Position numbers and translations under genes: made by a program | From: Paenisporosarcina sp. HGH0030 | GTDB taxonomy: Bacteria > Bacillota > Bacilli > Bacillales_A > Planococcaceae | Assembly: GCF_000411295.1 (NCBI RefSeq) | Contig: NZ_KE150421.1 | Coordinates: 69,265 to 133,264, forward strand | Length of the DNA stretch: 64,000 bases | Reading direction: 5' to 3' | The notes under the pieces: generated by a model | Told to the model about the DNA's origin: nothing | The model's database searches: none | Seen by the model: only the letters and a program-made list of their open reading frames with translations | Shown here: one piece after another, positions 4,925-55,492 of the stretch | Layout: each line of letters opens with the position of its first letter | Position numbering within the stretch: position 1 is the first letter of the stretch

Positions 4925-5171
4925 AAAAAATATATATTATTTTGAGTGATGAAAAGTCCGAAGTAATGAATGCAAGTGCTGTTTAGAGAGCCAGCGGGTG
5001 GTGAAAGCTGGTCAGTGTGCATACATGAATTACAGGCTGGGAGCTTAAACGTCAACACAACGATACTGTGTCTGATGAGCGGAAGGACTGGTTCCTTCAA
5101 GCTGGGTGGTACCGCGCAAATTGTATTTAGCGTCCCTGCATGATTTTTATTAATCGTGCAGGGACTTTTTT
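4925..5171 (+). promoter_or_regulatory. Tyr-specific T-box leader of tyrS with antiterminator and terminator
   Basis: The invariant T-box GGGTGGTACCGCG is at 5104-5116. The AGAGAG element of stem I lies near 4985, and TAC (Tyr) codons at 5031-5033 and 5022-5024 are specifier candidates. The terminator hairpin CCCTGCATGAT / ATCGTGCAGGG plus T-run ends at about 5171. T-box leaders bind uncharged tRNA, which favours read-through. Here that would raise tyrosyl-tRNA synthetase when Tyr-tRNA is uncharged. Which TAC is the specifier was not settled by folding. Confidence 0.93.
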
Positions 5172-28319: not shown

Positions 28320-28352
28320 TTCTTCTTGAACTAACGGGACAGATTAGTTAGA
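28320..28352 (+). repeat. Cassette palindrome
   Basis: TTCTTCTTGAACTAACGGGA then CAGATTAGTTAGA, a variant of the B type (GGGACAG core). Last element of the first repeat cluster; no gene follows on this strand. Confidence 0.65.
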
Positions 28353-34191: not shown

Positions 34192-34654
34192 AGTCTTATC
34201 TCCTTATGTGTAAAAATTTATTATCTGATCATCTTCATAATTATTCTATTAAAAAGTTACAAATTCCTTCCAAACAAAAAACACCTTGTCACAGTATAGG
34301 AAAATGTGAAATTGGGTTTTGGTGTATGTCATATAACATCTTGTTAACGAACAACACTTCGTAAACCCTCTACTATTGGAATAATCGCGAACCTTATTTC
34401 GTGAATGCCATCATATTCGATACCGTAGTTGCTATTCGATAAAACAACTTCGACTTCCCCACAAAATATTCCTACCCTGTACTCCATTAAATGGCCCTTT
34501 AATGGAATAAGGAACGATTATTGTTTCTCTTTGGGGTTGCTTAGGCAACTCTTTTTTCTAATTAAACTAACGGGGCAGGTTACTGCAATAAGAAGGAGTA
34601 ACCTATTCACATCTCGAATTAATTAAATGGATAAAAAAGAAAGAGGGGAAATAT
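34192..34654. other. Intergenic run-up to the cassette array
   Basis: Short hairpin around 34260-34330 only. The first composite repeat of the array starts at 34484; no gene seen. Confidence 0.4.
34484..34592 (+). repeat. Composite cassette boundary 1 (A palindrome, terminator, B palindrome)
   Basis: A-type hairpin CCATTAAA / TTTAATGG in a diverged form, terminator GGGTTGCTTAGGCAACTC plus T-run, then the B palindrome AAACTAACGGGGCAGGTTAC with TTATTGCA-type outer arm. Directly precedes the gene at 34655. Confidence 0.65.
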
Positions 34655-35032
34655 GTGTTTATTATTCTTGTAAAGTTTCTATTACCTGCTATTTTGTTGT
34701 TTTACCTTCTTCTTAGAATTTTAGATAAAAAAGATAGTAAATCAAAATCGACACTTGTTTTATTAATAACATCATTGGTCTTTAATACAGCATTAGCACA
34801 AAACTATAATCACAGCTTAATTCCATACCCAGAAAGGGATGGCTAGTCTGTTTCCAACTCGTTGGCATATTATGTTTTTGGTGAAGACCATTTTGGACAC
34901 TGGAACTCCGATTTATTTAGGACTGGATATGAAATTTCAATCAACGTTTCGATGATATTGTTGGTTATATATATTGGTTGTTTAATATTTGAACGTAGAA
35001 AAAAAGGCAAAGAGTACATCCTTTACAATTGA
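34655..35032 (+). pseudogene. Cassette gene for a two-helix membrane protein, in-frame amber stop
   Basis: GTG start 34655 after GAGGGGAAA. The frame has an N-terminal membrane segment and stops at TAG 34844-34846 after 63 residues (...SLIPYPERDG). Without that stop it runs a further 61 residues in the same frame, SVSNSLAYYVFGEDHFGHWN ... MILLVIYIGCLIFERRKKGKEYILYN, ending at 35032, with a second membrane segment and a basic tail. So the original product was about 125 residues. Not recognised. Either dead or read through. Confidence 0.65.
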
Positions 35033-35043
35033 ATTGAAATTCC

Positions 35044-35135
35044 TTATTCAACTAACGGACGCTTTAGTTAAAGATCGTGGAGTTGCTTGGGCAGCTCTTT
35101 TTTCTTATTAAACTAACGGGGCAGGTTAGCAAAAG
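35044..35135 (+). repeat. Composite cassette boundary 2
   Basis: A palindrome TTCAACTAA / TTTAGTTAA around CGGACGC (35044-35074), terminator GAGTTGCTTGGGCAGCTC with six T, B palindrome TTAAACTAAC / GGTTAGC around GGGGCAG (35104-35135). Confidence 0.8.
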
Positions 35136-35192
35136 AACCGATTCATGATTATAAAAAACGTAGTTAGGTTTTATCTTAGAAAGGAATTTTAA

Positions 35193-35414
35193 ATGGAAAG
35201 TATTTTATTATTAATTTTCGGTGTAGGATTTATTGCTTTTGGGATTAGACACAATAAAAATATTCACAAAGAAGAAGGTTTTGGTCATAGTGGTTCAATT
35301 ATTCTTGAATTTATTACAAGTTGGACAGATAAATTACCATATTGGTTTACAAAAACAATTTATTTATTGATTGGGCTTGGGTGTCTGATTGGCAGTTCTC
35401 TTACATATTATTAA
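35193..35414 (+). CDS. Cassette gene: small membrane protein, unknown
   Basis: 73 residues, GAAAGGAA before ATG. Two hydrophobic segments (SILLLIFGVGFIAFGI at 3-18 and TIYLLIGLGCLIGSSLTYY at 55-73) join a short soluble loop with HKEEGFGHSG. Single gene between two composite repeats. Family not recognised. Confidence 0.7.
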   Translation: MESILLLIFGVGFIAFGIRHNKNIHKEEGFGHSGSIILEFITSWTDKLPYWFTKTIYLLIGLGCLIGSSLTYY

Positions 35415-35430
35415 GGAGATTGTGAAGGAT

Positions 35431-35525
35431 TCTACTTAAACTAACGGGTGCTTTAGTTAAAGATCATCGGGTTGTTATGCAGCCCTTTTTCTTATTAAAC
35501 TAACGAGGCAGGTTAGTTGAAGAAG
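35431..35525 (+). repeat. Composite cassette boundary 3
   Basis: A palindrome AAACTAA / TTTAGTTAA around CGGGTGC, terminator GGGTTGTTATGCAGCCC with T-run, B palindrome AAACTAAC / GTTAGTTGAAGAA with core GAGGCAG (one base off the usual GGGGCAG). Confidence 0.8.
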
Positions 35526-35585
35526 AATCAAGATGTAATTTAATTAAAAGGAAAAAATACACGTCAATAGGAAAGTGGTGTTCAG

Positions 35586-35993
35586 ATGTCTCGTGCAGGG
35601 TTAGATAAGCTGAGGATTTTAGAGATATCCAAAGATAAAATAGGTAGATATGTGAAATTCAGGGCAACTCTTGCTGATGGCACATTAGATTTTCGATGCG
35701 AATTAGATGCTTTAACATATAAACACTTAAGAGAATCAGTTTCAAAAAAGTATTTTGACTCACTTGCTTCAGGTTACCAATACGATTTAATTCTTAATAT
35801 TCAACAAAATCTAAATGATAATCCTGATTTACCCTTTAAAGGAAAAATAAGATGTACACAAGGCAATCGAGCAATTCAAGTAGAATTTCCTTGCTCCGAA
35901 AGATTTGCCGGAAATATAAATTGGTTTACAATGGAAGTTAAAACTACAAAAGACATTCAACATTTAGAATGGACAAGGTTTTCTTTAGATTAA
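35586..35993 (+). CDS. Cassette gene: soluble protein, unknown
   Basis: 135 residues, ATG 35586 after GAAAGTGGTG. Opens MSRAGLDKLRILEISKDKIG; alternating hydrophobic pattern and pairs such as KGKIRCTQGNRAIQVEFPC suggest a beta-rich fold. No signal peptide. One of two genes in this cassette; the only array interval with two. Not recognised. Confidence 0.7.
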   Translation: MSRAGLDKLRILEISKDKIGRYVKFRATLADGTLDFRCELDALTYKHLRESVSKKYFDSLASGYQYDLILNIQQNLNDNPDLPFKGKIRCTQGNRAIQVEFPCSERFAGNINWFTMEVKTTKDIQHLEWTRFSLD

Positions 35994-36076
35994 AAGGACC
36001 AGTAAGAGTGTCAAATAAAGCGAAGTATTTTTGGATGATCTAGCTTTTTACAATAACCGTTAAAGAGGTGAATTTA

Positions 36077-36505
36077 ATGAGTGAGTGTATTTATATTAAT
36101 AATATTGATTCTACTCCGGAATGGAAGAAGATTTTAACTACAGTTATCGAATATAGTGATGAATTTGCAATTGTGTTTCCGAATGGTGAATATGATGCAG
36201 ATAACCCTTTATTAGCAGGAATGCTTGATTTTAAAAATCTTCCTAATATCAGCGTTTCTCCTTGGCCTAATATGAAAGACAGTAGTGTCTATAGAGCGGA
36301 ACTTAATGATACTTCAAGGAACTTAATTCTTAATTACACACTAAATGATACGTTTGATTCCCTTTGGAATTTCAGCTTATACAAAGGAGATTTAGAAGTC
36401 TTAAACGTAGCAGATTTCAGTGAATGCTTCATATACCCTGATCCTGAAGTGATAATGTTGGTAACCCAAAATGGTATAGATTTGAGCCGATTTGACAAAT
36501 GGTAA
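36077..36505 (+). CDS. Cassette gene: soluble protein, unknown
   Basis: 142 residues, ATG 36077 seven bases after AAAGAGGTG (an in-frame GTG at 36068 lies inside that site). Acidic, with WNFSLYKGDLEVLNVADFSE near residue 98. It begins 84 bases after the previous gene without a palindrome between, so the two probably share a transcript or came in as one unit. Recalls immunity or Imm-type small acidic proteins in composition, but no motif supports that. Confidence 0.7.
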   Translation: MSECIYINNIDSTPEWKKILTTVIEYSDEFAIVFPNGEYDADNPLLAGMLDFKNLPNISVSPWPNMKDSSVYRAELNDTSRNLILNYTLNDTFDSLWNFSLYKGDLEVLNVADFSECFIYPDPEVIMLVTQNGIDLSRFDKW

Positions 36506-36528
36506 TCAGGGATTATGATTATTTTTTC

Positions 36529-36619
36529 TTCTTCAACTAACGGGTGCTTTAGTTGAAGAACATCGGGCTGCGTAAGCAGCTTTTTCTTATTGAACTAACG
36601 GGGCAGGTTAGTTGAACAA
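36529..36619 (+). repeat. Composite cassette boundary 4 (most complete)
   Basis: A palindrome: perfect 12-base arms TTCTTCAACTAA / TTAGTTGAAGAA around CGGGTGCT (36529-36560). Terminator GGGCTGCGTAAGCAGC plus T-run. B palindrome: arms TTGAACTAAC / GTTAGTTGAA around GGGGCAG (36590-36619). Best example of the repeat unit, 91 bases end to end. Confidence 0.9.
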
Positions 36620-36690
36620 AAAGGTGAGAATTCATCTCTCTATTATGTCGAATTTGATTCATATTGTGAAAGAATGAGGAGGGGTTATAA

Positions 36691-36903
36691 TTGGCTAATA
36701 AATATTGTCCTATATGTGGAGAGGAAAACGAATGTATGACAGGAAGAGTAGAACACGGTAACTGCTGGTGTGATACAGAAGGCGTATTTCCTATTGGAAT
36801 CTTTGAGTTAGTTCCTACAGAGAGTATAAGGAAGAATTGTATATGTGAAAAATGTGTAAATAAATATAGGGACGAAGCGAAAATAAAGAAAGATATGTTG
36901 TGA
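36691..36903 (+). CDS. Cassette gene: Cys-rich CWC-family small protein
   Basis: 70 residues from TTG 36691 after GAGGAGGGG. Motif CPICGEENEC ... GNCWCDT ... CICEKCVNKY gives eight Cys arranged as in the 'cysteine-rich CWC' family, probably a zinc-binding fold. Role unknown. Complete, with its own boundary repeats. Confidence 0.8.
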   Translation: MANKYCPICGEENECMTGRVEHGNCWCDTEGVFPIGIFELVPTESIRKNCICEKCVNKYRDEAKIKKDML

Positions 36904-36940
36904 ACAATACGAAGAATTTATGCAATATAAGAAAATGTGC

Positions 36941-36973
36941 TTGTTTAACTAAACGGTAGCTTTAGTTGAAGAA
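36941..36973 (+). repeat. Cassette A palindrome
   Basis: TTTAACTAAA / CTTTAGTTGAA arms around CGGTAG, followed by terminator CGGCTGCCTTTTACAGGGCAG and seven T. The B palindrome is not adjacent here but comes 145 bases later. Confidence 0.75.
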
Positions 36974-37118
36974 CCGGCTGCCTTTTACAGGGCAGTCTTT
37001 TTTTATGAACCTAGTTAGATACTTCCCAATCGGGATGTATGTCAACCTAGGATGTATACGTGATACAATCCAGTTGAGTAAGTGAATCGAGCTTTAACGG
37101 ACGGATCATCTAGTTTCT

Positions 37119-37150
37119 TGTTCTACTAACGGGGCAGGTTAGTTGAATAA
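37119..37150 (+). repeat. Cassette B palindrome
   Basis: TTCTACTAAC / GTTAGTTGAATAA around GGGGCAG. Precedes the gene at 37198 by 47 bases. The 145 bases before it hold a remnant A-like string (GAGCTTTAACGGACGG), suggesting loss of a cassette here. Confidence 0.75.
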
Positions 37151-37197
37151 GGATTCTTTATTGAATAAATATATAACATTTAGGAGGATTAAATAGA

Positions 37198-37737
37198 GTG
37201 AAAAAAACAGCAGTGTTAATATACCCTCAATATAGTGAGTATGAGCTAAGTGTTGCATTATCCATTCTTATGCAGGGAGAGAAACCTGTCATAACTATCG
37301 GTCTAAATAATTTGCCTATTAGAGGCGAATCTGGACTAACTTGTTTAACTGATACTACAATTGATGAAGTAAACCTTGAGGAGATAGATAGTCTTTTATT
37401 AACAGGTTGTATGGATATATTAGCATTAGAAGGTAAGAAAGAAATATTTGAGTTTATAAGTCGAATAGAGAGTAAAGCAACTGTAATTGGAAGCATTTCA
37501 AGTTCTCCGTATCTTTTAGCAAATGCAGGGCTTTTAAACGGCAAAAAATATACTATTGGTATGACAGAAGAAAACCGAGAGAAGTCTGGTGTTTTTGAAA
37601 AGGAAAACTATAGTGAAGAACTTGTAGTCCAAGATGGAAAGCTGATAACTGCAAGGGGCAGAGGGTTTATAAGATTCGGGGTATGTTTTGGAAAAGCATT
37701 AAACCTGAAATTTGATGAAAATTGGTATAAGGAATAG
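37198..37737 (+). CDS. Cassette gene: DJ-1/PfpI-superfamily protein
   Basis: 179 residues, GTG 37198 after TAGGAGG. Opens KKTAVLIYPQYSEYELSVALSIL and runs through LLLTGCMDILAL and VIGSISSSPYLLANAGLLNGKKYTIG to VVQDGKLITARGRGFIRFG, the pattern of DJ-1/PfpI proteins. The nucleophile Cys is missing: the elbow reads GSISSSPY where family enzymes have AICHG. So it is probably not a protease or deglycase; a binding role is possible. Largest but one of the cassette genes. Confidence 0.75.
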   Translation: MKKTAVLIYPQYSEYELSVALSILMQGEKPVITIGLNNLPIRGESGLTCLTDTTIDEVNLEEIDSLLLTGCMDILALEGKKEIFEFISRIESKATVIGSISSSPYLLANAGLLNGKKYTIGMTEENREKSGVFEKENYSEELVVQDGKLITARGRGFIRFGVCFGKALNLKFDENWYKE

Positions 37738-37741
37738 GGTC

Positions 37742-37864
37742 TTCTTCAAGTAACTGGGGGCTTTATTTAAAGTACATTGGGCTTGCTTTGGTAGCTCTTT
37801 TTTCTTATTGAACTCCCATGAAAATTAATCTTATCCAACTAACGGGGCAGGTTAGTTCAATAAG
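37742..37864 (+). repeat. Composite cassette boundary 5 (rearranged)
   Basis: Decayed A palindrome (TTCTTCAAG / CTTTATTTAAAG), terminator GGGCTTGCTTTGGTAGCTC with T-run, a truncated B start (TTCTTATTGAACT) and, 25 bases on, a full B palindrome CCAACTAAC / GTTAGTTCAATAAG around GGGGCAG. The half copy suggests recombination between repeats. Confidence 0.75.
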
Positions 37865-37926
37865 CAAAATTTTTCGAAACTAATATGTCATCAAATACGT
37901 ATAGTTGATGGAGGAGGAATCCCATC

Positions 37927-38634
37927 ATGTTGTATTTATTCATTTTATTTCTAGCTACTCAATTAGGTATTTGGATTAGGTACTTTGTAAAAGGGTTTAT
38001 TGAACTTTCACAATTGGGTCTTAGCTGTTTGTTTTTAGTAGCTGCGGTAGTATTTTTTATTATTGAAATTCTTCAAAGTAAAAAAGATGCACAGTTTAAA
38101 CCAAAATCAGAAGATCTTTGGCAAACAAGATTAACAGAACGTTCTAAAACGACGGAAAAGAAACTTACAAAAGGCAATCAACGTATTTTTCGCTATAGGC
38201 GGTATTATCCTACTTTTTGGCAACGTTTATTTGTTGAGTTGGTAAATGCCTCCGATAAATATATCCATCTGGCTTTTTTTAATGAAACCAAGCGAGTAGA
38301 GTGGCAAGAGTATAGTAAATTTACTTCTAACAAAGTTGTTTGGAAAGTAATAGAGAATGGCATAGAAATCGCGGAAGCTCGTTATACCCCGAAGATAAAA
38401 GATAAACTAAATTTTGAGGATAAGTTAGCCATCCATATTCAAGACGAAACCTATCAATTACTATCCTATAAAGTGAGTAATCAAGTTTTGGTTTATAAAG
38501 ATTCACAAAAGATTAGCGAAGCCGATTTGTCAAAATTAGTGATGGGAAATTTAGAGTTTCGCATACATGATACGAATGAAGAACTATTAGCCATGGCAAT
38601 TGTGCTATTTCAATATTTACATAAAAGTGGCTGA
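37927..38634 (+). CDS. Cassette gene: membrane-anchored protein, unknown
   Basis: 235 residues, ATG after GGAGGAGGAAT. Two membrane helices in the first 55 residues (LYLFILFLATQLGIWI and LGLSCLFLVAAVVFFIIEIL) are followed by a basic linker. The soluble domain of about 150 residues is rich in beta strands (KVIENGIEIAEARYTPK, DETYQLLSYKVSNQVLVYKD), resembling tubby- or PH-like phospholipid-binding folds only loosely. Not recognised. Confidence 0.7.
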   Translation: MLYLFILFLATQLGIWIRYFVKGFIELSQLGLSCLFLVAAVVFFIIEILQSKKDAQFKPKSEDLWQTRLTERSKTTEKKLTKGNQRIFRYRRYYPTFWQRLFVELVNASDKYIHLAFFNETKRVEWQEYSKFTSNKVVWKVIENGIEIAEARYTPKIKDKLNFEDKLAIHIQDETYQLLSYKVSNQVLVYKDSQKISEADLSKLVMGNLEFRIHDTNEELLAMAIVLFQYLHKSG

Positions 38635-38765
38635 ATAGTTGAAGGTGCACATAGAAAGTACATAATAAATAGTTTTATCTGAAGCCACTACTTTACTTGA
38701 TTTATGGAATTTCCGAAATGTTGGAGATTCCCTGATAGTGATAAATAATTAAAGGTAAAAGATTC

Positions 38766-38859
38766 TTCTTCAAATAACGGGTGCGTTAGTTAAAGATCAT
38801 GGATTGCTTAGGCGGCTCTTTTTTCTTATTGAACTAACGGGGCAGGTTAGTTCAATAAG
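38766..38859 (+). repeat. Composite cassette boundary 6
   Basis: A palindrome TTCAAATAAC / GTTAGTTAAAGA around GGGTGC, terminator GGATTGCTTAGGCGGCTC with T-run, B palindrome with perfect 14-base arms CTTATTGAACTAAC / GTTAGTTCAATAAG around GGGGCAG (38825-38859). Confidence 0.9.
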
Positions 38860-38918
38860 AGAAGGTGAAGTTTTATATCGTATTTGACACAAAATGCGTA
38901 ACAGAAAGGGTGTTATTA

Positions 38919-39152
38919 ATGCTTTGGAATTATAGAGTATTGAAAAAACAAATAAGTGAAAAAGAAGTTGTCTTTGATATTTGCGAGGTTTATTACAAAG
39001 ATGGTGAACCTAATGGTTGGGTGTGGGATGAGAACATTCTAAAACAAGAATCATTAGAAGATTTAAAAGATGCTTTGATTGGAATACAGGAGGCTTTGAA
39101 GCAACCCGTACTTGAAATCATTGGTGATGATGAAGGATTAAGAGAGATTTAA
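38919..39152 (+). CDS. Cassette gene: small hypothetical protein of a widespread family
   Basis: 77 residues from ATG 38919 with AGAAAGGGTG nine bases before; the in-frame GTG at 38865 has no site. MLWNYRVLKKQ ... FDICEVYYKDGEPNGWVWDE ... LEDLKDALIGIQEALKQPVLEI. I recall similar 'NYRV..k....' small proteins in many bacterial phyla, including integron cassettes, without known function; that is from memory. Complete. Confidence 0.75.
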   Translation: MLWNYRVLKKQISEKEVVFDICEVYYKDGEPNGWVWDENILKQESLEDLKDALIGIQEALKQPVLEIIGDDEGLREI

Positions 39153-39194
39153 TGCGTCACATTACGACCATAATGTGTAATAAAAGAAAAAGTG

Positions 39195-39229
39195 CTTATT
39201 GAACTAACGGGGCAGGTTAGTTCAATAAG
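39195..39229 (+). repeat. Cassette B palindrome (identical copy)
   Basis: Same 35 bases as 38825-38859, followed by the same AGAA. No A palindrome or terminator precedes it, so the 3' boundary of the previous cassette is missing. Confidence 0.9.
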
Positions 39230-39285
39230 AGAAATTAAAAATAATGTTTAACTGAAAGTAAAACCAATAAGGGAGTAATTAATGA

Positions 39286-39621
39286 ATGATAAAAAAACTG
39301 AACCAATTTACATTAGTTGATGTAATTGAAAGGAAAATTCATTTCACAAATACAAATACTATATACGATAAAATAGATTTTGAAGATATGAATGAAGGTG
39401 AATTGCAGGCTTATCATGAAATGTTGGCGGATGTTAAAGAAATGAATGAAAGTGAATTTGTAAGTAAGTACCTAAATATTATAAATAAACTTACTGTACA
39501 GTCCGAAAACGAAGAACTTACGGACAAGAGAGAGATAGAAAAAATGTCTGGATATAATAATGCCATAGTATCTATCTTAGAATGTATAAACCCGATTTAT
39601 GAGTATGATTTAGAGGAATAG
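39286..39621 (+). CDS. Cassette gene: small acidic protein, unknown
   Basis: 111 residues, ATG 39286 ten bases after AAGGGAG. Mostly helical and acidic: MNEGELQAYHEMLADVKEMN, TDKREIEKMSGYNNAIVSIL, ending NPIYEYDLEE. No membrane segment. Last gene of the array. Small acidic cytosolic proteins can be antitoxins or immunity proteins, but no partner is seen. Confidence 0.7.
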   Translation: MIKKLNQFTLVDVIERKIHFTNTNTIYDKIDFEDMNEGELQAYHEMLADVKEMNESEFVSKYLNIINKLTVQSENEELTDKREIEKMSGYNNAIVSILECINPIYEYDLEE

Positions 39622-39630
39622 TCCATCATG

Positions 39631-39666
39631 TCTTATTGAACTAACGGGTGCTTTAGTTTAATAAGA
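39631..39666 (+). repeat. Cassette A palindrome, end of the array
   Basis: Arms TCTTATTGAACTAA / TTAGTTTAATAAGA (one mismatch in 14) around CGGGTGCT. Closes the last cassette; nothing but a terminator follows before msrC. Confidence 0.88.
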
Positions 39667-54478: not shown

Positions 54479-55492
54479 ATGGCTCCGCGAAAGAGGAAAA
54501 CACAAGTAGTTAAACAAGTTTCGGGTTTGTCATTCCAACGTGCAAGAGAAATTGTAATAAACATTAAAGCCGTTGAAGGAAAAGCGGATAATACAATTGA
54601 GAATTATCACAAACTGTTCAATGACTTTGACCGATTCTTTATGCACAGAAAGCTTATATCTAATGTTACTACTGAAGACGCAAGAAACTTCATCAAATGG
54701 CAACTAGAAGAAAAAACACAATTTCTCAATGCACGTTTTCGAACGAATAAGAAGAAGGGTGTAACTGTTACATCGGCTAATTCGTATCTAAGATTAGCAA
54801 AAGCGGCATTTGAAACTCTTGTACGAGACGGCTCATTAGAAAATAACCCATTTTCTCCGTTGACTAAAATTAAACAGCAGACAAAGCAAATAGAAGTTCT
54901 GACGATTGAGCAAGTCAAAACAATCTTCAAGGCTTTTGATAAAACTTGGTATGCAGATTTTCGTGACTATGTTGTGTGCAATGTTATGTTAGACACATTT
55001 GGAAGAATAGATGAGATATGTAACTTGAAAAAAGCTCATGTGGATTATTTAAATGGAGTAGTTACTTTTAATGAAACAAAAAATGGTCGATTTCGTCACG
55101 TGCCAATTTCTCGTAAAGTGGTTAGAATGATTGAGGATTTAAATTTGGAAACAGAGGATTTTTACAGTGAATACATTTTTGTCAGTAATCATGGTACAAC
55201 TTTAAGACCAGACGCTTTCAGAAAGCATTTAAAAGAGGTTATAGGACGTACAAATATTAAAACAAGGGTATATCCACATTTATTTCGTCACACGGCTAGT
55301 ACCTTGTTTTTAGCGAATGGTGGAAGTGTAAGAGCCTTACAAAAAATACTAGGACATGCACAAATTGAAACGACTATGATTTATTCTCACATGCTGGATG
55401 AAACTATAAAGACCCAACATGAACTATTCAACCCATTAAAAATGATAAATGAAAAAACTACAATTAAAACTAAAAGAAAAACCTACACTTAA
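54479..55492 (+). CDS. Tyrosine recombinase (integrase)
   Basis: 337 residues from ATG 54479 after GAAGGAAGG; 126 bases after ackA. SAM-like N-terminal domain (33-120, TIENYHKLFNDFDRFF) and catalytic domain with Arg176, Lys201, His267-x-x-Arg270, His293 and nucleophile Tyr302 (MIYSHMLDE), all present. XerC/D-like mobile-element integrase, not the integron IntI type since no extra helix insertion is seen. Marks the left end of the accessory island. Its attachment site is not visible by eye. Confidence 0.9.
   Translation: MAPRKRKTQVVKQVSGLSFQRAREIVINIKAVEGKADNTIENYHKLFNDFDRFFMHRKLISNVTTEDARNFIKWQLEEKTQFLNARFRTNKKKGVTVTSANSYLRLAKAAFETLVRDGSLENNPFSPLTKIKQQTKQIEVLTIEQVKTIFKAFDKTWYADFRDYVVCNVMLDTFGRIDEICNLKKAHVDYLNGVVTFNETKNGRFRHVPISRKVVRMIEDLNLETEDFYSEYIFVSNHGTTLRPDAFRKHLKEVIGRTNIKTRVYPHLFRHTASTLFLANGGSVRALQKILGHAQIETTMIYSHMLDETIKTQHELFNPLKMINEKTTIKTKRKTYT

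Follow-up and report, generated by a model that had tools for sequence, protein, structure and literature searches.

We describe here a row of small genes bounded by short palindromes of two types, A and B, in a 64,000-nucleotide stretch of DNA (the window; C1:69265-133264) taken from a 3.52-Mb genome of the genus of Paenisporosarcina sp. OV554. Long rows of this kind occur in relatives of Bacillus from soil and sea. The array very probably belongs to a mobile system of gene cassettes in the Bacillales that has its own dedicated XerA-like recombinase: the palindromic sites are clustered and uniformly oriented, near-identical units occur in varied contexts, related strains have exchanged units at the sites, the exchange maps to the core of single palindromes, and the recombinase both lies within arrays and co-occurs with them. 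The original prediction, made from the letters of the window, had proposed a separate cassette system of Bacillales, and the strain-level exchange together with the co-localised, co-occurring recombinase supports it.

Sites were called by matching to AACTAACGGGGCAGGTTAGTT (B) and AACTAACGGGTGCTTTAGTT (A), with ≤2 mismatches in the window; Hamming scans took the place of a fuzzy regular expression that had picked up only about half of the sites. None of 100 shuffles of the window contains either pattern. All window sites lie on the forward strand (Table 1); a gene starts about 35-110 nucleotides after each B site, and seven of the eight B units terminate at an A site, the exception being the unit at 38832, which runs directly into the next B. 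The predicted series of eight B palindromes with genes behind them, mostly closed by A and all in one direction, is thereby confirmed, as is the broken state of the open reading frame (ORF) from 34655, which contains an in-frame stop. In the source genome there are 131 B sites at ≤3 mismatches (0 for a reversed control pattern), with long arrays at C1:0.495-0.501, 0.569-0.659, 0.985-1.040 and 1.366-1.440 Mb, plus elsewhere.

The same architecture extends over 39 array regions from seven genomes, which hold 632 sites scored at ≤5 mismatches; 12 of these regions have 180 sites, versus 2 once shuffled. Neighbouring sites are on the same strand in 536 of 560 pairs and on opposite strands in 24. 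The order is B, gene, A, ~40 bp, B, with a median B-to-A gap of 578 bp (263-2175 bp at 5-95%) and a median A-to-B gap of 41 bp; such irregular gaps, with whole genes between the repeats, differ from the regular spacers of CRISPR, from which the arrays had already been told apart. The A-to-B linkers are intrinsic terminators (mean minimum free energy -8.3 vs -4.05 shuffled, and a T run in 82%, for 178 linkers from all regions). No -10 box was found at a fixed distance from the site, and a promoter built into the B half is unsupported. Conserved flanks reach to about 14 bp around the arm, ~6-bp centre and arm. Family-wide site counts are lower bounds, because diverged sites escape detection by consensus matching. 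Other A-to-B linkers fall into length classes of ~30, 38-41 and 85 bp; a 566-bp A-to-B unit is present twice in one genome at 98.8% identity (L063:5271-5836 and L064:5110-5675), and a third site-like motif, TTCA(A/G)CAATCGGGCCAGATT...TTGAATAA, stands at unit ends (L277 near 7370, L263 near 10720 and L264 near 4635).

Evidence of exchange emerges from a complete genome of the same species (G141). Its alignment with the window is 99.8% identical as far as 38866 and 99.0% identical from 39632 on. In the interval, the window genes at 38919 and 39286 give way in G141 to one different gene; the joints fall in the B site at 38832 and the A site at 39639. At the window's lone B site (28329), G141 has a 2.76-kb run of units inserted, its left end in the site. 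Over all arrays in this comparison, 65 of 128 aligned-block ends lie in sites, against a random mean of 11.0 and a maximum of 22 (2000 draws). Furthermore, about ten units, 96.5-99.6% identical, occupy different places in the strain pair with both ends in sites, and the sequence immediately outside the core is unrelated. Units have thus been replaced and relocated singly at sites; a comparison that might have gone against the original prediction came out in its favour. An all-against-all comparison of arrays likewise brought up site-bounded units, 95-100% identical, whose surroundings are unrelated: L119:17659-18339 and L125:10289-10969, for example, from two arrays of the complete genome G037, match at 100% over 681 bp. 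Plasmids from strain pairs of Peribacillus frigoritolerans offer a rough example only.

Another key observation concerns the position of the crossover. In two pairs of copies, the same gene end (TTGAACTAACGGG in one pair) is continued by a right half of A type in one member and of B type in its partner; the left half of a site is therefore the upstream unit's and the right half the downstream unit's. Counted from the left arm, the first differences cluster at offsets 8-10 in the case of right ends; several left ends have theirs at offset 9. Exchange is located in the 20-21-bp core of arm, 6-bp centre and arm, and the sequences fit a core in which a left arm AACTAACG and a right arm GTTAGTT enclose a 6-bp overlap open to repair in either direction. 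A and B had been taken for opposite ends of a unit. That view is not upheld: as the crossover falls within a single palindrome, the two types differ in what comes after, not as left versus right ends.

A scan for tyrosine recombinases drew out a 279-amino-acid XerA-like protein encoded inside arrays, antisense to the cassette genes. Both copies in the source genome (C1:499450-500286 and 587943-588779) lie within a 1273-bp block, 99% identical, that has A at its start and B at its end. G000 and G037 each have the recombinase block as an A-to-B unit in two arrays, the copies being 98-99% identical. Relatives are found in at least 489 stretches of a collection of named genomes. Among the best 78 of these loci, nearly all are labelled Bacillales (Paenisporosarcina, Psychrobacillus, Sporosarcina, Lysinibacillus, Neobacillus, Peribacillus, Virgibacillus and others); 726 of the sites around the recombinase are antisense to it and 22 sense, and units flank it on both sides. 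Many of the 78 have an A site ~38-52 bp past the stop and a B or B-like site ~70-81 bp before the start; the latter might be compared with the attI platform of integrons, but units lie on the other side too.

The array recombinases form one clade (support 100/99), apart from XerC/XerD of the same genomes, to which they are 28-33% identical. Their best curated family is NF040815 (XerA/integron-type; 224.2 bits vs a cut-off of 220). Across 39 sequences R138, K162, H228, R231 and Y263 are invariant and H254 nearly so, which makes up the catalytic R-K-H-R-H-Y set; an AlphaFold model of low confidence (predicted local distance difference test score, 67) was discarded. The integron integrase model TIGR02249 reaches 95.9 bits in two pieces, below its family cut-off of 265; the earlier remark that no IntI is visible therefore holds, with the correction that an XerA-like tyrosine recombinase does exist, outside the window. 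G085, from a more distant family, has a 49% identical recombinase among variant sites (CTAACGGGAAACGTTAG, terminator, CTAACGGGCAGGATA), so the architecture is older than its sequence. A recombinase of ≥75% identity is present in 27 of the 38 genomes with ≥20 sites and in 12 of the other 223 (Fisher p=6.6e-19 for 261 genomes, partly draft, hand-counted from tables and uncorrected for relatedness); a first panel of 101 genomes had given p=2e-9. The original prediction had suggested looking for a recombinase that co-occurs with the arrays, and this protein is one. At G037:C1:2606937-2611116 (L156, L160), a row of four different tyrosine recombinase genes lies within an array region.

We propose the following mechanism for these arrays. 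A unit, usually one gene, opens with the right half of one palindromic site and closes with the left half of the next; the XerA-like recombinase, which we infer to be the acting enzyme, most likely binds the inverted arms in the manner of a Xer-type enzyme, with strand exchange around the 6-bp centre and cleavage predicted at offsets 8 and 14 of the core, and would thereby delete or insert DNA between directly repeated sites. Because all sites point in one direction, recombination between two of them would excise the intervening DNA as a circle, the presumed intermediate, which could re-enter at any other site, so that the units of an array would be gained, lost and reordered. A and B have the left half and the first bases of the centre in common, which would let the two exchange partners and form hybrid junctions. 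B right halves open gene units, and A right halves either ~60-bp terminator units or the recombinase unit; a captured gene would therefore tend to have a terminator after it. The reaction probably takes place on double-stranded rather than folded single-stranded DNA.

Several observations weigh against this proposal. The ~60-bp units are too short for a double-stranded circle. About half of the strain breakpoints lie away from recognisable sites, and the right end of the G141 insert at 28329 is not at a clean site. The pairing expected of the two ends of a unit shows only weakly: flank covariation had a z of 2.5-3.2 in a first set and ~2 in a larger one, and was therefore discarded as support. 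G141 has 147 sites yet no recombinase match at E≤1e-70, which implies that arrays outlive the recombinase or are otherwise served. Lastly, some genomes that have few such sites, or none, encode recombinases of 60-68% identity. Among genomes of this kind, G044, G208, G278 and G282-G284 have recombinases 65-67% identical; these may use other sites or have acquired a new host role.

Of the alternative readings, a true but divergent integron fares best, and we consider it quite unlikely; here an IntI lineage would recombine folded, attC-like A-terminator-B sites as single strands. The resemblance is considerable: a tyrosine recombinase gene that lies beside a site and is divergent from rows of units, which share one orientation and mostly have a single gene, GTTAG cores, hugely diverse accessory cargo, a group II intron in one array, and large chromosomal arrays with no integrase close by, comparable to clusters of attC sites lacking integron integrases (CALINs). 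Orientation also follows replication. In G037, dnaA is at 670 and the GC skew changes sign at ~2.02-2.04 Mb; 98 of 100 listed sites are forward when they lie up to 1.78 Mb and backward when they lie at 2.07 Mb or beyond, which places cassette genes on the leading strand of both arms. In integrons, such an orientation reflects strand use; leading-strand placement is also expected of Firmicutes genes, and the bias in G037 is stronger than usual. The Vibrio chromosomal super-integron has arrays of >100 sites and mostly unknown genes, as Bacillales arrays do too, but the Bacillales system has its arrays, several to a genome, on either side of the terminus, with another site and another enzyme.

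What decides against an integron is the enzyme and the site. The recombinase is XerA-like and has no IntI-specific domain near patch III; a search for IntI gave 0 of 261 genomes in the order, although control genomes lack IntI too, so that this search alone is no proof of absence. The core is a simple 20-21-bp palindrome, whereas attC is 57-141 bp long, arranged R''-L''-L'-R', and folds as a single strand; an attC-like long-range fold is best in only 24% (top strand) or 17% (bottom strand) of 186 junctions, and crossovers occur at A as well as at B. The likeness of the palindromes to attC ends, which the original prediction had called loose, is indeed superficial; by eye an attC-like reading of A-terminator-B is attractive, but it found no support in long-range folding or flank covariation. 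The recombinase lies mid-array within a unit, with units on both sides, and the intrinsic terminators after units argue against a common promoter Pc. Of the integron-like properties first noted, single-gene units in one orientation thus stand, and the integron itself, for want of the IntI domain and attC, does not. In the way it operates, the system nonetheless parallels an integron.

A second reading dispenses with a site-specific enzyme: RecA-dependent homologous recombination or transformation would act across the ~100-bp A-terminator-B repeats. Neighbouring junctions are alike, and a pair of crossovers within the repeats might exchange one unit at a time; however, breakpoints concentrate in the 6-bp core rather than spreading over the repeat, relocated units are unrelated just beyond the core, lone sites are too short for RecA, and the recombinase inside the arrays is left unexplained, all of which makes this very unlikely. 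We find it highly improbable that A-recombinase-B represents a small transposable element, with the short A-terminator-B segments as its internally deleted derivatives and the genes as bystanders: the recombinase block does move as an A-to-B unit, but B-to-A gene units also move alone, and sites stay while gene content differs between strains. A reading in which the palindromes belong to some ordinary family of dispersed intergenic repeats or terminators (like repetitive extragenic palindromes or miniature inverted-repeat transposable elements), with genes as mere neighbours, would suit their shortness, the terminator between A and B and the many copies per genome, but is extremely improbable given sites that cluster in arrays of foreign single genes and not beside core genes, different half-sites after the same gene end, strain breakpoints in sites at six times the chance level, a recombinase embedded antisense, and few or no sites in most relatives without it.

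Acinetobacter dif (pdif) modules are the other close comparison: they too are rows of gene modules between short arm-centre-arm sites with a ~6-bp centre, on chromosome and plasmids (PMC12907356, PMC11705084). Their sites, however, are 28 bp long with two 11-bp arms, alternate as C/D and D/C, and come with no recombinase of their own (PMC12907356, PMC11705084), whereas neighbouring sites in Bacillales do not alternate, have two right-half types and co-localise with a single dedicated recombinase distinct from host XerC/XerD. XerA/XerC/XerD (PDB 4a8e, 1a0p; NCBIfam NF040815) are the closest sequence family and of similar size (~280 amino acids), but the array recombinase, a separate clade, goes with cassette arrays rather than with one dif site. 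Because integrons and dif modules each failed a defining feature that we tested, we set the system apart as a kind of its own. On balance we favour, with some reserve, a second, independently evolved bacterial gene-cassette capture system, with its own recombinase lineage, simple sites of two types and a recombinase that is itself a mobile unit, found across chromosomes and plasmids of the Bacillales and probably the origin of the pC194 catA unit. If every recombinase-driven cassette row counts as one kind, the system would be a form of that kind.

The cargo of these arrays is diverse. Among 608 B units, the longest ORF shares the strand of its site in 492 of 583, starting at a median 74 nucleotides past the site and 146 amino acids long. 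The 471 cargo proteins fall into 357 families, 285 with a single member, and thus bear out the prediction that the genes are unrelated. Acetyltransferases and proteins of chloramphenicol acetyltransferase, APH and metallo-beta-lactamase folds are included; defence systems are sparse (4 of 74 proteins match PADLOC). Arrays are present on chromosomes and on plasmids. In phages we found no array DNA, and recombinases there are only distant (<40% identity). A Peribacillus plasmid array contains a group II intron reverse transcriptase gene (L263:5258-6586; compare group IIC introns in integrons). On the Klebsiella grimontii plasmid pNY3A (L315:4001-4607, CP079755.1), a B site is followed by a gene start 57 bp on, either a cross-phylum transfer or a mixed assembly.

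On pC194 of Staphylococcus aureus (L311, NC_002013.1), a classic plasmid of chloramphenicol resistance, catA is flanked by B at 934-954 and A at 1806-1825, with one mismatch each, a terminator hairpin follows the A site, and cat runs antisense to A and B. Of 2000 pC194 shuffles, 6 contain any site at ≤4 mismatches. The unit is also on pLS20, and its B end is on 18 plasmid records in all. Owing to the positions of the sites around catA, pC194 cat looks like an escaped unit of the Bacillales cassette system. Published primers for the pC194 cat marker terminate in A/B palindromes; the site motif turns up in several published papers, in some of them inside laboratory primers for cat or a cat-bearing vector. 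A search of the open-access literature, with subscription papers and preprints outside it, found no description of such arrays.

Integrons are nearly absent from Firmicutes, where the only complete one is reported in Limnochorda pilosa (PMC9024848), and the present system would be a route by which small accessory genes spread there; on pC194, a resistance gene known from the clinic lies between its sites. The system further suggests that a plain Xer-type enzyme can be enough to give rise to cassette arrays, with no need of a folded attC, which would make the origin of integrons testable, and a searchable site motif would allow thousands of small, unannotated mobile genes to be catalogued.

Table 1. 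Sites, genes and breakpoints of the array and its surroundings (window coordinates)
Feature	Position	Strand	Basis
Lone B-type site, 6.2 kb upstream of array	28329..28349	+	consensus match
B site, degenerate right arm	34565..34585	+	consensus match
Unit 1 gene, membrane protein ORF interrupted by in-frame TAG	34655..35032	+	ORF reading
A site	35050..35069	+	consensus match
B site	35111..35131	+	consensus match
Unit 2 gene, 73-aa membrane protein	35193..35414	+	
A site	35439..35458	+	consensus match
B site	35498..35518	+	consensus match
Unit 3 gene a, 135 aa, no match to known family	35586..35993	+	
Unit 3 gene b, 142 aa, no match to known family	36077..36505	+	
A site	36535..36554	+	consensus match
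Linker with intrinsic-terminator hairpin, typical A-to-B spacer	36555..36592	+	
B site, perfect consensus	36593..36613	+	consensus match
Unit 4 gene, cysteine-rich CWC protein; two further arrays of the source genome have near-identical copies	36691..36903	+	
Degenerate A site	36947..36967	+	
B site	37124..37144	+	consensus match
Unit 5 gene, DJ-1/PfpI family	37198..37737	+	
Degenerate A site	37748..37768	+	
B site	37837..37857	+	consensus match
Unit 6 gene, Tubby C-terminal-like domain	37927..38634	+	
A site	38772..38791	+	consensus match
B site, left breakpoint of strain difference	38832..38852	+	consensus match, G141 alignment
Segment of units 7 and 8, swapped in G141 for one other unit	38853..39638	+	G141 alignment
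Unit 7 gene, 77 aa	38919..39152	+	
B site separating units 7 and 8	39202..39222	+	consensus match
Unit 8 gene, 111 aa	39286..39621	+	
A site at array end, right breakpoint of strain difference	39639..39658	+	consensus match, G141 alignment

The left edge of the window array (34484-34513) bears a different palindrome, CCATTAAATGGCCCTTTAATGGAATAAGG, possibly another site type; the segment 34484-34531 has a ~92% match in Listeria plasmids, similar palindromes are present in the G037 arrays, and the array query matched 22 Listeria records. None of the sites matches an Rfam family, and the sole Rfam match in the window is a T-box leader (RF00230) at 4940-5140 (+). At 54896-55399 (+) the window also encodes a phage-type tyrosine integrase (357-amino-acid open frame) that is distinct from the array recombinases.

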